Shown: one piece after another, positions 10,155-21,471 of the stretch
How positions within the stretch are numbered: position 1 is the stretch's first letter
Layout of the letters: each line of letters begins with the position of its first letter
Virus record (IMG/VR): IMGVR_UViG_3300041418_000150
Coordinates: 1-25,875 of that record
Source of the DNA: a virus
Reading direction: 5' to 3' (one strand)
DNA: 25,875 nucleotides
Made by a program: the position numbers and the translations under genes
The notes under the pieces: model-generated
Databases searched by the model: none
Seen by the model: only the letters and a program-made list of their open reading frames with translations
Told to the model about the DNA's origin: nothing

Positions 10155-10368
10155 TGTGTTTCATGGGTTGGCGAAATTTTGTCGCGTGGGGACAATCCGC
10201 GTAATGGCTCACGCCGTCTGCGGTGATGGGGTTCAGCTTGCCGGACTTCATTCGGACAAACCAGATGGTGCGGCCGCAGGCGGTGCAACTGGCCCGGTTG
10301 GTGATCATGTCCAAGAGCTTGACGATGTTTGTCCCCAGCTCGCTGGCGGTCAGCGCGCTCGCCATCAT
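10135..10368 (-). CDS. 77-aa zinc-binding phage protein
   Basis: The ATG at 10368 overlaps the stop of the ParB-like gene (GCATGATG). CTACGRTIWFVRMKSGKLNP is followed by SHYADCPHA, so two Cys plus Cys/His pairs form a likely zinc site. Proteins with CxxCGxxIxWxxxxxGKxxPxD...SHFxxCPxA are common and uncharacterised in phages. It overlaps the HNH gene start by 20 nt, consistent with coupled translation. Confidence 0.7.
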   Translation of the reverse strand: MMASALTASELGTNIVKLLDMITNRASCTACGRTIWFVRMKSGKLNPITADGVSHYADCPHATKFRQPMKHNDDSSS

Positions 10369-11420
10369 GCCACCACTTCGTCGACCACAGCCATAGGCCG
10401 CGGGCTCACCGGTCCCTTGAAGGGCACAAGCCGGCGGGTACGCTTCCCGGAGTTGATGTGATTGATCCAGTACTGGTAAAGCAATAACTGCGACTTGCCG
10501 CTCGCGGCCACGAGGTGTGCGATCCCAGCGTCAGTGATCGGGAAGTGTGCCATCTTTATCCTGACACTGCGATCGATGCTAAGTTTCGTGCCGTCCCAGA
10601 AATTCCGGTGGTCTGAAATGACCGACGCCAACACGACCAGAAACCCTTGCCGCAAAAATGGTGCCGATTCTTTGAATGCCAACGTGCGAACATGCCAGCA
10701 TTCATCGACCAAGTCGAAGAAACACTTGACATTCTCGCGCATGATATTGCGGCCGACGTTGTTCATAGTCTTCTGCATCGACGGCATGCGTGACGTCAAG
10801 TTGCCGGCCTTGCCTGGCCCGAATTGGCCGTGTAGTCTGGCGGAGACGCCAACGAACACATTCTCCGTTAGTAAGTGATGCCGTTGCATCGCTTGGCCCC
10901 ATGATACCCGGTCGTAAAGTACGAAGCTGCTGTCCATGGTCAGGTTATACAGCATCTCGAGTACGGTGTATTCGTGGCGGAAGTTGCGCAATAGGATGTT
11001 GGGCGACAGCTTTGCCGCGGTCGTGTTGAGCATCCGGAAGCGCTGCATTTCGCTTTTCTCGTCGGTGTTGAAGTGCACGATGGCGCCCAGGCGGGGGATG
11101 AATTCGCCGCCGCGCGCGAGTTCCTTCGCCGCGGTGACTCGCTGCAAGCCGTCGATAATGTAGACGTCATCATGCAAGTACACCTCGCCTTCACGCTCGG
11201 TGTAGTTGCCGCCACGCATCCCGAGATCGATATCCGGGACGGTTTTGTCCTTCACCGCAAGCATGAGGTCTTTGATTTTGACTTTCGTTAATATTTCCCG
11301 CTGATAGTCGCCAACTTTCAGCAGAAATAGCGAGTCCGGATCGATGACACCACGTAGAATGATGTCTTTCGTTTCAGTTTCATCCAGAGCCGCGTTGGTG
11401 AATTTCACCGATTCGCGCAT
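10365..11420 (-). CDS. ParB/DGQHR-like (DUF262-like) protein
   Basis: This 351-aa protein has IDGLQRVTAAKEL at residues 89-101, close to the DGQHR/DGQQR motif of DndB-type and DUF262/GmrS proteins and the ParB/sulfiredoxin fold. It also has an FNTDEKSEMQRFRMLNTTAAKLS stretch like the 'F...N....KLS' segment of those families (each part under 20 residues). Such proteins bind DNA or nucleotides, and several act in DNA modification or defence and anti-defence. The ribosome-binding site is strong (GGAGGTGA, 5 nt before the ATG). The C-terminal half contains helices without a motif I know. The exact function is unknown. Confidence 0.7.
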   Translation of the reverse strand: MRESVKFTNAALDETETKDIILRGVIDPDSLFLLKVGDYQREILTKVKIKDLMLAVKDKTVPDIDLGMRGGNYTEREGEVYLHDDVYIIDGLQRVTAAKELARGGEFIPRLGAIVHFNTDEKSEMQRFRMLNTTAAKLSPNILLRNFRHEYTVLEMLYNLTMDSSFVLYDRVSWGQAMQRHHLLTENVFVGVSARLHGQFGPGKAGNLTSRMPSMQKTMNNVGRNIMRENVKCFFDLVDECWHVRTLAFKESAPFLRQGFLVVLASVISDHRNFWDGTKLSIDRSVRIKMAHFPITDAGIAHLVAASGKSQLLLYQYWINHINSGKRTRRLVPFKGPVSPRPMAVVDEVVA

Positions 11421-11434
11421 GTTTCACCTCCGTT

Positions 11435-11776
11435 TTACTTCAATCTCAACAGCCGATCAATCTCCGCAGCGATGAGAGCACCCGCCTTCACGAGCATTCG
11501 GATCCGCTCGGCGTTCGGGCAGCGGTCTGCCGGAATTAATACGTTGCCATTGTACTCTCGTTTATCCCAGTGGTAATCCCAGGGCCAAGGGTCACCGAAA
11601 CAGATGCCACCGGGCTCGCTGTCATCCTTGTAGTAAATGTTAGCTGGCGCCGCGTAGCACACAGCAGCCCAAGCCAACTCAGCCCGAACGTGGCCATCAT
11701 CATGCTCAGCGCTCCAACCCTCTTCAGTGACTTGTCGCTCGCGTTCTTGCGCAATTAACTCCACTCCTGTCGCCAT
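11435..11776 (-). CDS. Phage 'ERQRQ-EEGW-EHDD' family protein
   Basis: The 113-aa protein has the widespread phage pattern AQERERQVTEEGWSAEHDD, then ELAWAA, WPWDYHWDK and RMLVKAGALIAAEIDRL. The acidic/His cluster and helical ends recall MazG/NTP-pyrophosphohydrolase-type folds, and homologs are sometimes labelled dATP/dGTP diphosphohydrolase N-terminal region; this is inference. The start ATG 11776 has GGGGGTAA upstream. It lies between the ParB-like gene and a putative DNA-binding gene. Confidence 0.75.
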   Translation of the reverse strand: MATGVELIAQERERQVTEEGWSAEHDDGHVRAELAWAAVCYAAPANIYYKDDSEPGGICFGDPWPWDYHWDKREYNGNVLIPADRCPNAERIRMLVKAGALIAAEIDRLLRLK

Positions 11777-11789
11777 GGGCTTACCCCCT

Positions 11790-12476
11790 TCAACTCAAAT
11801 CCACACCGTACTGGCCGGCCCACTCCTCCATCAGGTGCATCAAGATCTGGCCGGCGTCGTGCGTCTCGCAGCGTTCGATCGTGCCGGCGTCCTCTTTCAA
11901 CTTACGCCACATGTGCGCCACTTCGCGCGTGGTCGTGATCGTGATCACCACGGTGGTCGCCTCGCCTTTCGAGATGAGATTCCGCTCTTCCGCCCACGCT
12001 TCTAGATCTTTTTTGGTCATTACTTCCGCGCGGGCCAGATGCTGCTCGACGTCGGTTTTGGTTTCGTCGGTGAACTTCTGCAGCAACTTCAGATTTGCCC
12101 GGCCGATCTTGTCGTACCGTGCCGGCGTGATCGATGGGAAGCTTTGAGCGATCAGCAGCGCATCGTAGACCGAACTTGAGCTCTTCCCCAGGCGCGGCTT
12201 GACCCAGTCTTCGATGAACTGCGTGAAGCTCTTGAACCCCCACTCCCGATGGATGGTGCGCTCGCGAATCACCCAGAGCATGCGGCCGATGAGCGCATTA
12301 CTGCGCGTGTGCTGGCGGTGGGCAATCATGGCGCTCCGGCAACACAGCCCCAAGGTTTTCAAGAGCTGGTCGGCGTCGATGTTCTGCGGAATAATGACTT
12401 CGATCTCAGCGTCAGGATCGAGTAAATCGAGTAACTGCGCCTGTTCTTGTGTCGTCAATGCGAGTTCTTCAGGCAT
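11790..12476 (-). CDS. Putative DNA-binding regulator, DUF3102-like
   Basis: In this 228-aa protein residues 50-110 (LIGRMLWVIRERT, WGFKSFTQFIEDW, LGKSSSSVYDALLIAQSF) look like the DUF3102/ParB-type helix-turn-helix seen in plasmid and phage proteins, where 'F..FIE.....S..T.Y....IA' is characteristic. The C-terminal part (TTVVITITTTREVAHMW) is a β-strand plus helix. It overlaps the next upstream gene by 8 nt. No enzyme motif is visible. A role as a transcriptional or replication regulator is a guess. Confidence 0.65.
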   Translation of the reverse strand: MPEELALTTQEQAQLLDLLDPDAEIEVIIPQNIDADQLLKTLGLCCRSAMIAHRQHTRSNALIGRMLWVIRERTIHREWGFKSFTQFIEDWVKPRLGKSSSSVYDALLIAQSFPSITPARYDKIGRANLKLLQKFTDETKTDVEQHLARAEVMTKKDLEAWAEERNLISKGEATTVVITITTTREVAHMWRKLKEDAGTIERCETHDAGQILMHLMEEWAGQYGVDLS

Positions 12477-18031: not shown

Positions 18032-18193
18032 TCAGGTTTTCCAGTGCCGGCCGACGTGCCAACCGTGACAGCGCGGGCAGAAGTATACCTCCCCGGAATA
18101 GCCAGATATCCTCTTGAGAATCGAGCGAAGTTGGCTTTCCGCAGCGCCGCGTGACAAGTGAGAATGCTTCTTCGTCGTGCGGCAATGTTTCAT
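18032..18193 (-). CDS. 53-aa zinc-ribbon protein coupled to tas
   Basis: ATG at 18193 overlaps the stop of the Tas-like gene (CAATGA), so the two are translationally coupled. The product starts MKHCRTTKKHSHLSRGAAES and ends with VYFCPRCHGWHVGRHWKT. The latter matches the end of a widespread group of tiny zinc proteins with 'VYxCxxCxGWHLT'. The metal site would be CPRC plus nearby His and perhaps the N-terminal His/Cys. It has a basic, helical first half. No catalytic motif is seen. The position directly after tas makes it a candidate accessory factor, but such proteins are also common alone in phages. Confidence 0.7.
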   Translation of the reverse strand: MKHCRTTKKHSHLSRGAAESQLRSILKRISGYSGEVYFCPRCHGWHVGRHWKT

Positions 18194-19008
18194 TGCGGCC
18201 AGTTGGGGACCTCGATCATATGGACATGGCCTAAGTGCTCAAGCGAGTACGGCTTCGGCGGCGCCTTCTTGTACTCGATCATGTAGGCGACGTGGTGCCA
18301 ATGTGCCAAAAATATTTTGACTGCCCAGCGCTTCGCGCGGGCGTGGATGTGCGCCGGCGGCAGCTTCCCGGCCAAGTAGCACTGCTTGGCGACCGTGTCC
18401 TTCCGGTAGTTTTTCCGGGCGAGAGCGACCTTGGCCTGGTCCGCGAACTCGCCCGCGTCATTCCGCGCGGTCTCCAACTCTTTGCGTTGGACGTAGAACT
18501 TGCCGTAAACGTCGTTCTCGTTAGTCGATACCTTGACAAAGCTCTCGCCGATTTTCCAGCACAGAGTTTTGAGGTCGGCATTCCACGGCCGCTTCTGATT
18601 GGCTTCCCAGGTGACCGTGGGGTCGAGGCCGGCGAAGCGCCAAATGTGGCCGACGGTTGGGCACTTTGTGATGTCGATGTGCGCGGCGAGGCCGGCCGAG
18701 ATGATGGGGCCGATCCCGGTGATCGACTTCGCCCACAAGCAAATCTCGCTGGTCTCGGTCCATTGGTCAAGTGCACGGTGGATCTGTGACTCAATGATTT
18801 CGCCTTGCCGCACCAGCCAGCCGATCAGATCGTTCGGCTGTTTCGACTTCTCCAGGGCGCGGTACTGATTAGCCGATACCTTGCGATACTCCTGCAGGGC
18901 GTAGTAGCCGTTGACGATGTAACCTACTTCGTCAAGGGATAAGTCTTTGGCTGCCATCGCCAGGTCTCGTTTGAGACGCTGGACAGGCTCTAAGGCGTCG
19001 TAGTTCAT
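18190..19008 (-). CDS. Tas-like protein (TasA type), Transposase_20/Nop-like core, no nuclease
   Basis: This 272-aa protein has a long charged helical N-terminal part (about 1-90, coiled-coil-like). The core SITGIGPIISAGLAAHIDI (about 95-113), then VGHIWRFAGLDP (about 119-130), is the helix-hairpin-helix signature shared by the C-terminal domain of IS110/IS116/IS902 transposases and Nop-type RNA-binding proteins. The basic C-terminal region contains HIHARAKRW and YMIEYKKAPP. No DEDD/RuvC catalytic motif or HNH motif is visible, so it would bind but not cut DNA by itself. The 36-bp-period array immediately upstream identifies it as a TIGR-associated (Tas) protein, TasA-like in the TIGR-Tas scheme, rather than a transposase. 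No transposon ends are seen. The start ATG 19008 has AAGGAG, formed by the last spacer and repeat of the array. Confidence 0.85.
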   Translation of the reverse strand: MNYDALEPVQRLKRDLAMAAKDLSLDEVGYIVNGYYALQEYRKVSANQYRALEKSKQPNDLIGWLVRQGEIIESQIHRALDQWTETSEICLWAKSITGIGPIISAGLAAHIDITKCPTVGHIWRFAGLDPTVTWEANQKRPWNADLKTLCWKIGESFVKVSTNENDVYGKFYVQRKELETARNDAGEFADQAKVALARKNYRKDTVAKQCYLAGKLPPAHIHARAKRWAVKIFLAHWHHVAYMIEYKKAPPKPYSLEHLGHVHMIEVPNWPQ

Positions 19009-19009
19009 G

Positions 19010-19740
19010 TGTGTCGCTCCTTGTACGTGGTGCTCTCAGGTTTATTGGCTCGCTCCGACTATCTGGTACTCTCAAGCGGTATGGCTCGCTCCTTGTCCAT
19101 GGTACTCTCCGGCAGTTTGGCTTATTCACACTGTTTGGTGCTCTCCGGCTTAATGGCTCGCTCGGCATCGATGGTACTCTCTCGCGGAGTGGCTCGCTCA
19201 GGAAATTTGGTACTCCCTGAGAATATGGCTCGCTCCCAGTTTATGGTGCCCTCAGGCATGATGGCTCGCTCCGGTAGTGTTGGTGCTCTCATTCGACTTG
19301 GCTCGCTCTGGGCATATGGTAGTCTCATCGTCTGGTGGCTCGCTCAGAGAGAATGGTACTCTCGCTTCAGTTGGCTCGCTCAGATTTGATGGTGCTCTCC
19401 GATTGATTAGCTCGCTCAAGATAAGTGGTGCTTTCCTCGCATTTGGCTCGCTCACATTCTGTGGTGCTCTTGAACAAGATGGCTCGCTCAGGCTATATGG
19501 CCCTCTCACCTCACATGGCTCGCTCGGATGATATGGTGCTCTCATAATGGTTGGCTCGCTCGCGGAATTTGGTGCTCTCCCGAAACTGGCTCGCTCGACT
19601 GTCCTGGTGCCCTCGATTCAAATGGCTCGCTTCCAGCGTCTGGTACTCTCAATCCGGATGGCTCGCTCCTCTACTTTGGTACTCTCCGGTCTAATGGCTC
19701 GCTCCCGTATAGTGGTACTCTCAGATTCAATGGCTCAAGG
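19010..19740 (-). repeat. TIGR-like array: 41 alternating 10-nt repeats, 40 spacers
   Basis: Two repeat types alternate strictly. In - strand (tas sense) they are A = GAGCGAGCCA and B = GAGAGTACCA or GAGAGCACCA. There are 21 A copies (16 identical) and 20 B copies (7 with TAC, 6 with GCA-type centre, 7 single or double variants). The 40 spacers are all different; 37 are 8 nt, two are 9 nt (19272-19280, 19327-19335) and one is 7 nt (19580-19586). The unit is 18 bp and the A+B period is 36 bp. Degenerate A copies end the array at 19010 and 19731, and one internal A copy (19118) is damaged. As recalled for TIGR-Tas, such arrays are cut into about 36-nt guide RNAs with two short spacers, each pairing with one DNA strand. 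Direction of transcription is inferred from the flanking genes. Confidence 0.9.
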
Positions 19741-21471
19741 TTTTACCGCCTTAGCGACTGCCAAGGCATTCAGCCGGTCGGAAATCCCTCCCTTCGACCA
19801 CTCCGTGTTGCCGGCGGCATACTGCTTCATAGCAAACTGGTAAAGCTGAATCCCATCAAAGTGTTTGCGGCGCAAGTGCCCGTCACGATAATAGAGTGCC
19901 CAGCACTGCTTCTGATTTGGTGGCTCGCTCTTCCACTTGGCTGAGGCGAGTACGAGGCCGATCTGTTCGCGCGGCACCGCGGCGTCACCGGCTGTGAAAG
20001 CGTCTTCCTTCTTGCCGGCAAACAAAATCCTGGCGTGTCCTTCCGTGTTCTCTTGGAGCTCCCACTGGCCGAGCACGTCCTGATTGATGTAGAACGTTCG
20101 ATCGGCCAGGCTCAGCCGGTAGCCGGCGATGCCGTCCTTGACCCAACCGAATTTGCTCATGCGCTGGACCTCGGCCGGGATCTTGATAGGCCCGAGCAAG
20201 TCGACTTTTCTGACGAGCGCCTCGATCTGGCGCAGGCTGGTGTAGCCCTCGATGTCCAGGCCCGGCGTCTGTCTCAGGAGACCCTCAAGCTGCTTGGCGG
20301 TCCGGGTGGCGCTCTTTCCGGCGAGGTCGAAGTCGGCCCGTAGCCCGAACAGCGTCGGTAGGGTCACAATGGAGTGCCTGCCGGTGTTGTCGCAGAAGTC
20401 TACCCAGATGGCGAATTGCTTGATGAAATCCCCGGTGTAGGTGGCGGCATCCTCAGGCGCCGGGTATGGCCGAAGCTGCCGGCCGAGCTGCTGAATGAAT
20501 AATCCAGGCGACTTTGTCGGTCTGGTACCGAGTCCAACGGTGCACCGCGGATTGTCCCAACCTTCGGAGAGTACGCCGCACGAGGCCAGGCCCAAGAGGT
20601 CACCACATTCGTGCCGGCGGTAGAGGACTTCACGCTCGTTATCCGGGGTCTCGCTGCTGATTGCCTCGCAGGAGATTCCATAGTGCCAGAAGACGTCCGC
20701 TAAGTCCTTCGAATGCTGGATGGTCACCGTAAACGCCGCAAACGTCAGGCCAGCAGCCAGCTTCTGGTACTCCTGAACGACCAAGCGGTTGCGTTCGAAT
20801 GTATTCACAGCGTCCGACAGCTCGCCCTCTTTGAAATCGCCGCTCCGCGTACCAACATCACTGATGTCGGTCATGGTGCTGACGTGATAGCCGGTGGGTT
20901 CCACCAGCCAGTTCGCCTCGACCATCTCGCGGATCGAGCGCGCGAACACGATCTTGTCGAAGACCTTTTCGAGACCGATCTTGTCGCCGCGCTTCGGGGT
21001 CGCTGTGAAGCCAACGAGCAGCTTGCCAGGAACGCGGTTCTCGGCGCCCTTGTAGACCTGGAAATACTCAAGAACGCCGAGGTATGACGGGCTGATTACG
21101 TGGTGCGCTTCGTCAACGATAACGACTTTCACGATCGCCGGGTTGAAGCGTTCGCGTCGCTTGGCGTGTTGCAGTGTCTGGATCGAACCAACAATGACAT
21201 CAGCAAATGGGTGAGCGCGCCGGCTGCCCGCTTCGATTTCTATCGCCAAGGACGGATTGTATTTCGCCAGCTTCTCCGCATTCTGCTCGATCAACTTATC
21301 GCGATGTACCAGCACCAGCATCTGCTGGGGCAATCTCAAGTTCAGGACTTCAGGCAGGTGTGAAAAGATCAGAGTTTTGCCGGTTCCCGTAGGAAGTGCC
21401 ACGAGCTGATTCTCGATGCCGGCGCTGCGGATCTCTTCCAGACACTCTTGCTGGTAGTCGCGTAGGCTCAT
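19735..21471 (-). CDS. SF2 DEAH helicase, XPB/UvsW-like
   Basis: This 578-aa protein carries the SF2 helicase motifs in order: RDYQQECLEEI (Q-like), LPTGTGKT (28-33), VDEAHH (DEAH at 120-123), FTATPKRGD (about 155-163), GVLSEGWDNP (motif V) and QQLGRQLRPY (motif VI). It is a DNA translocase of the type found in many phages for fork remodelling or recombination-dependent replication. It is translated from ATG 21471, which overlaps the upstream gene stop. Its stop codon TGA (19735-19737) is inside the first repeat of the TIGR-like array, so helicase, array and tas are probably on one transcript. An exact A repeat also occurs in its coding sequence at 19921-19930. Confidence 0.9.
   Translation of the reverse strand: MSLRDYQQECLEEIRSAGIENQLVALPTGTGKTLIFSHLPEVLNLRLPQQMLVLVHRDKLIEQNAEKLAKYNPSLAIEIEAGSRRAHPFADVIVGSIQTLQHAKRRERFNPAIVKVVIVDEAHHVISPSYLGVLEYFQVYKGAENRVPGKLLVGFTATPKRGDKIGLEKVFDKIVFARSIREMVEANWLVEPTGYHVSTMTDISDVGTRSGDFKEGELSDAVNTFERNRLVVQEYQKLAAGLTFAAFTVTIQHSKDLADVFWHYGISCEAISSETPDNEREVLYRRHECGDLLGLASCGVLSEGWDNPRCTVGLGTRPTKSPGLFIQQLGRQLRPYPAPEDAATYTGDFIKQFAIWVDFCDNTGRHSIVTLPTLFGLRADFDLAGKSATRTAKQLEGLLRQTPGLDIEGYTSLRQIEALVRKVDLLGPIKIPAEVQRMSKFGWVKDGIAGYRLSLADRTFYINQDVLGQWELQENTEGHARILFAGKKEDAFTAGDAAVPREQIGLVLASAKWKSEPPNQKQCWALYYRDGHLRRKHFDGIQLYQFAMKQYAAGNTEWSKGGISDRLNALAVAKAVKP

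Follow-up and report, generated by a model that had tools for sequence, protein, structure and literature searches.

How can a string of 10-nt repeats beside a small gene serve the phage that carries it, and what would its spacers recognize? The question is raised by a 25,875-bp IMG/VR record (hereafter the window, meaning the whole stretch of DNA that we analyzed), in which two alternating repeats and two short spacers, repeated as a unit 20 times, run up to a gene that we call tasA. Comparisons of the array and of the protein leave very little doubt that the locus belongs to the TIGR-Tas family, subtype TasA with 8-nt spacers, which is a known kind of system; that it is the TIGR-TasA system of a tailed phage we regard as reasonably probable. 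Two questions were not settled when TIGR-Tas was described in 2025: the targets of natural arrays, and the way in which arrays change. Our best explanation of the whole, which we hold with moderate confidence, is that this TIGR-TasA is used in competition between phages. The parts of this explanation differ in strength: RNA-guided binding to the DNA of rival or sibling phages is the best supported, silencing of that DNA is probable, and a competition role between phages is plausible, at about an even call.

On the minus strand the array reads toward tasA (Table 1). A chain parser recovers 41 repeats, each of 10 nt, separated by 40 spacers of which no two are identical, and so reproduces the counts and coordinates given in the original prediction, which had been made from the letters alone; the spacers are 8 nt long in 37 of 40 cases, and the three others (two of 9 nt and one of 7 nt) are as stated there. 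The score of the chain is 521, whereas 20 shuffled versions of the region score no higher than 9.9. The edge repeat, GAGCGAGCCA, is exact in 16 of its 20 scored copies, the loop repeat follows the consensus GAGAGYACCA (GAGAGTACCA seven times and GAGAGCACCA six times, plus variants), and both begin with GA and end with CCA. Published TIGR arrays have two alternating repeats of 8–12 nt, short spacers, a 36-nt unit and, typically, truncated terminal edges (PMC12045711). The window array has this layout throughout, with two distinct repeats in alternation, short spacers, a 36-nt unit, a first edge truncated at its 5′ end and a last edge truncated at its 3′ end, which bears out the organization first proposed for it; TIGR-Tas spacers are mostly 9 nt long, with some exceptions. 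The repeat ends also carry box C/box D motifs that covary between edge and loop: among 119 dereplicated arrays of relatives, the last base of the two consensus sequences is A/A in 78 and G/G in 25, and A never stands against G. Such covariation is expected if the two repeats bind the same site of one symmetric dimer (PMC12045711).

Open frames run across the array on the plus strand, and they look spurious, because related loci share the repeats and not the spacers. For the same reason a coding-repeat reading was rejected, and the conservation of spacers as coding sequence, which would have told against the prediction, did not occur. A CRISPR array, which would have one type of direct repeat of about 25–36 nt, was likewise rejected in view of two alternating 10-nt repeats, and a search of Rfam gave no match. 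Outside the array the window holds one further copy of GAGCGAGCCA, exact and on the minus strand, at 19921-19930 inside a helicase gene, roughly 190 bp upstream of the array.

The protein next to the array agrees with this. NCBIfam model NF052498 ('TIGR-Tas system RNA-guided endonuclease') matches the tasA product at 1e-54 and 185.8 bits (cut-off 100), and its best relatives by sequence among solved structures are TasR (9mty, 2.8e-12) and TasH (21kl, 3.8e-8). The AlphaFold model (predicted local distance difference test, pLDDT, of 81) is all-helical except at the C-terminus, and a Foldseek search with it places TasH and TasR at ranks 1–11 (E 2e-7 to 1e-4; the TasH structures among these matches were released in March 2026), followed by IS110 recombinases. 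The protein also matches PHROG 4285 and, over a C-terminal stretch only, Pfam Transposase_20; PADLOC gave no match for it. With 22.1 bits from the IS110 equivalog model (cut-off 140) and only that C-terminal stretch in common with Transposase_20, identification as an IS110 transposase was rejected. A phage-borne array beside a matching protein is thus what we find, and the neighbor is no stranger to the Tas, Nop and IS110 families, as it might have turned out to be.

Residues 34–271 of the protein align with residues 116–322 of TasR, which leaves no room for a nuclease domain, and by its sequence and model the window protein is therefore TasA, a Nop domain alone without an HNH or RuvC nuclease. 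Since the nuclease domain is missing, binding of DNA rather than cleavage is expected of TasA, and we presume that the window protein binds a tigRNA together with guide-matched DNA. Of the RNA-guided DNA-targeting system that the original prediction had envisaged, the TIGR-Tas identity holds, whereas nothing in the protein is expected to cut.

What, then, do such guides recognize? TasR cuts leave 8-nt 3′ overhangs (PMC12045711), and from this published geometry we derive that the target of a unit should consist of spacer A and, after it, spacer B in reverse complement, or A.rc(B). Natural sites of this form appear in a related cluster of phages of about 41 kb (G013-G019 and G024, with Tas proteins 85-99% identical), whose TIGR-free siblings were found by their terminase. 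Of the 81 unit pairs in this cluster, 4 have an exact, gap-free A.rc(B) match in sibling phages: CGGGGCGT/AAACGAGA, CGACGCGC/CGGCCCAT, CGACTCAA/AGAAACGA and TTGCCGAG/AAACGAGT, from the arrays of G014, G016, G017 and G018. None of 87 pairs formed across unit borders matches, mispaired spacers match in 1 of 500 cases, and the random expectation is 0.03 (Fisher p = 0.0016; Poisson 2.5e-5 at the control rate and 4e-8 at the random expectation), p-values that are optimistic because the cluster was picked after a first match had been seen. The geometry control is independent of that choice: when register, orientation and gap were varied in 32 combinations, 4 exact matches fell to the predicted combination and 1 to the other 31 together. 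We conclude that A.rc(B) is probably the rule of DNA recognition, and for this TasA clade the geometry is supported, through sequence matches, by the natural targets of the related cluster.

The positions of these targets are themselves informative. Three of the pairs fall in one and the same short stretch close to the 5′ end of a gene that we call geneX, which in TIGR-bearing siblings immediately follows the array, and the fourth falls close to where a VRR-NUC-like gene (named by eye) starts. These two genes border the TIGR module: about 120 bp separates them in the TIGR-free sibling G051, and tasA and the array do so in the TIGR-bearing G013. In each case the carrier's own copy differs from the target, by CGGGGCTCGTCTCGTTT against CGGGGCGTTCTCGTTT, the target of the G014 guide, by a 3-nt deletion, and by AGACTCAATCGCTCAC and TTGCCAGACTCAATCG in the remaining two. 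Near-matches in the carrier's own genome (at most two mismatches, no gap) number 8 where 18.9 are expected (p = 0.004), a depletion that is suggestive but weak, since a similar dip occurs at gap 3. In another TIGR-free sibling, G046, a cytosine methyltransferase-like gene (MRPLAIDLYAGLGG..., by eye; L238, 5272-5922) occupies the position at which siblings carry the TIGR module, which suggests that this position is an exchangeable accessory site.

Several results weigh against our best explanation. The 20 pairs of the window, together with the variant pair of a near-identical contig (L004), have no exact match in the 3.5 Mb of DNA from related phages that was searched at gap 0-2 with up to one mismatch and that comprised the window phage and every locus fetched, so that the comparison of paired spacers with phage genomes suggested at the outset came back empty apart from a few one-mismatch matches of chance type. 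An independent freshwater cluster (L059-L068), again with siblings found by terminase, has 0 exact targets among 109 pairs; targets are not enriched over all loci together, and one-mismatch pairs are not enriched cluster-wide. One target allele that we predicted but had not sampled, CGACTCACGCCGTTTC, occurs in three viral contigs, none of which has DNA similarity to the siblings. A terminator-like site was sought on the minus strand just after 19010 and none was found, the array running into tasA; a rho-independent terminator after the array is a typical, not an obligatory, trait of TIGR-Tas. Finally, heterologous TasR failed to block phage plating (PMC12045711).

Now we consider how the arrays change. 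Over 12,874 bp the window and L004 differ by six substitutions only, all of them in spacer B of unit 2 (Table 1). The chance that six independent mutations would cluster in one spacer is about 1e-15, and the comparison shows that one guide half has been replaced en bloc. The array has a further B spacer, TGGACAAG, that differs from the new sequence, TGGACACG, by one base, a hint that the replacement was copied from inside the array; an assembly artefact is possible, but an artefact would more likely copy exactly. Other near relatives have gained or lost whole units. Where an edge-side spacer is shared, its partner within the unit is kept in 108 of 133 comparisons and its neighbor across the unit border in 63 of 137 (p = 1.8e-9; the comparisons are not independent), and on this stronger linkage within than across units we take the evolving unit to be edge-A-loop-B, that is, the tigRNA. 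Among peat-type siblings (L054-L057, L187-L191), blocks of the array are shared with breakpoints in both edge and loop repeats, and single pairs (ggagtatc/agcacgcg) occur up to three times per array.

Table 1. Features of the TIGR-TasA locus, in the numbering of the window.
Feature	Position	Strand	Basis
TIGR dual-repeat array, 20 edge-A-loop-B units	19740-19010	-	Chain parser
First edge repeat, 5′-truncated (GAGCCA), upstream end of the array	19731..19736	-	
Spacer B of unit 2, AAGTAGAG in the window and TGGACACG in L004	19669..19676	-	Contig comparison
Last edge repeat, 3′-truncated (GAGCGA), 5 nt ahead of the tasA start codon	19014..19019	-	
tasA, 272-aa Nop-domain protein without nuclease domain	18190..19008	-	NCBIfam, sequence and fold

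The phage itself can be traced beyond the window. A 75-kb contig (G025) from the metagenome of L004 starts within the helicase gene of the window and encodes terminase, portal and head proteins; it is probably the rest of the window phage, whose whole genome would then be about 100 kb. Within that gene this contig (L180-L183) and L004 share an overlap of about 127 bp (window 20940-21066), and identical copies of its terminase occur in four further metagenomes. When siblings of the window phage were sought by helicase and terminase, the viral collection returned identical or near-identical copies only and no divergent ones. An acidobacterial host is likely, because the closest matches to TasA in cellular genomes are metagenome-assembled genomes of Acidobacteriota (59-62% identity). 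An alignment search for Tas gave 395 relatives in viral contigs and 10 in genomes; in the loci fetched for 80 of the 395, nearly all have an array with 8-nt spacers and a near-identical repeat consensus. Variants exist among the relatives: one locus (L010 of G009, about 11600-12250) has a 35-nt period and 9-nt edge repeats (GAGCAGCCA), and thus a variant unit length, and the Tas proteins of L012 and L013 (G011 and G012) have an insertion of about 30 residues ahead of a conserved LPPAHIH motif. In the window, a ParB/Srx-like protein (PHROG 1033, 1.4e-5) is encoded on the minus strand at 10365-11420, some 7 kb from tasA and not adjacent to it; parB-like genes have been reported in operons with some tasA genes.

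Drawing these observations together with what has been established for other TIGR systems, we can sketch how the locus might work. The array would be transcribed on the minus strand together with, or into, tasA, and by analogy with the TIGR systems tested so far the transcript would be cut within each edge repeat to give tigRNAs of about 36 nt. A TasA dimer would hold one tigRNA through the conserved repeat ends GA...CCA, the equivalents of box D and box C. Spacers A and B would then pair with opposite DNA strands, so that each unit would specify a 16-bp site, A then rc(B), as the literature has shown for TasR and TasH. Being nuclease-free, TasA would most likely act as a roadblock on the DNA that it binds. 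Its guides would match the alleles of rivals or siblings near gene starts, spare the allele of the carrier, and be retargeted by swaps of whole spacers. Processing, binding, repression, a benefit in competition and the same purpose for the window's own guides are all steps that we infer. A sharper version, which we offer only tentatively, is that sibling phages use the arrays on one another as a weapon or drive specific to certain alleles, whose guides would recognize the homologous locus flanking the module in siblings, spare the carrier's allele and evolve by en bloc swaps of single spacers; within it, the window phage and L004 could, just as tentatively, be a live example of en bloc replacement of a single spacer.

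The same targets admit another use. TasA sitting on the sibling locus might bend and open the DNA and promote recombination, thereby spreading the TIGR module or its alleles by homing or allelic drive. The exact targets do flank the position of the module, one of them (CGGGGCGT/AAACGAGA) is exact in TIGR-free siblings, and TasA is related to the RNA-guided recombinases of IS110; yet TasA has neither a nuclease nor a recombinase domain, of the four exact targets two were found at TIGR-bearing siblings, and most spacers have no known target, so that we consider homing unlikely. We give a similarly low probability to the proposal that the guides serve host takeover or regulation and silence genes of the host or of the phage itself rather than those of rival phages. 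A nuclease-free RNA-guided binder would suit regulation, which the first describers raise (PMC12045711), and the window guides lack a known target in a search confined to phage DNA. However, guides turn over rapidly between near relatives, unlike what guides for conserved host genes should do, the carrier's own genome has, if anything, fewer near-matches than chance would give, and the targets that were found are in sibling phages.

Could the four exact 16-mers be coincidence, or copies of flanking sequence by shared ancestry, with the role of the array lying elsewhere? That they are only four, that one-mismatch matches show no overall enrichment and that the second cluster has no exact match would fit such a reading. 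All four nevertheless fall in the geometry predicted from TasR, compared with one exact match in the 31 other geometries, the match to spacer B is in reverse complement, unlike what a simple local copy would produce, and three pairs converge on one short segment of the siblings; we therefore think it quite improbable. That the locus is an ordinary array of repeats, or what is left of an IS110 element, and has no guide function, as the transposase labels of older libraries (Transposase_20, PHROG 4285) might suggest, is scarcely credible given the contrast between the IS110 and TIGR-Tas scores, a protein too short for a DEDD domain, and an array present at nearly all relatives in which repeats are conserved and covarying and spacers variable.

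Competition between phages thus remains the explanation that we prefer, and it can be approached directly: natural targets in TasR geometry make the purpose of the nuclease-free TasA testable, and a window phage that differs from a near-identical relative by one spacer makes turnover open to study by resequencing. Natural targets may already have been reported in newer work.

Among known systems, the closest is the TIGR-TasA dual-repeat type (Faure et al. 2025, PMC12045711; for example FpTIGR of Flavonifractor plautii), which shares with the window a solo Nop-domain protein beside the array, alternating edge and loop repeats, a 36-nt unit, truncated terminal edges and a location in phage. It differs in that the two spacers of FpTIGR add up to 18 nt, and so have 9 nt each, whereas the window has 8 nt; in that 5-15 units are usual where the window has 20; and in that the window array directly precedes tasA with no terminator found. 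The sole record matched in the annotated phage collection is TIGR-TasH of Salicola phage CGphi29 (SpTIGR), whose two spacers total 16 nt as in the window and whose Nop domain is related in sequence (26% identity over 64% of the query) and in fold, but whose TasH carries an HNH nuclease that the window TasA lacks. With TIGR-TasR (9mty) the window has the CCA repeat ends in common, and the natural targets of its relatives obey the tandem-spacer geometry of TasR; the repeats start with GA in the window and with UG in TasR arrays, and the N-terminal RuvC domain of TasR is not in the window TasA. More distant are the bridge-RNA recombinases IS110/IS621, the next best folds after the Tas proteins, which have a related RNA-binding domain but differ in their DEDD catalytic domain and in using one bridge RNA in place of an array of many guides.
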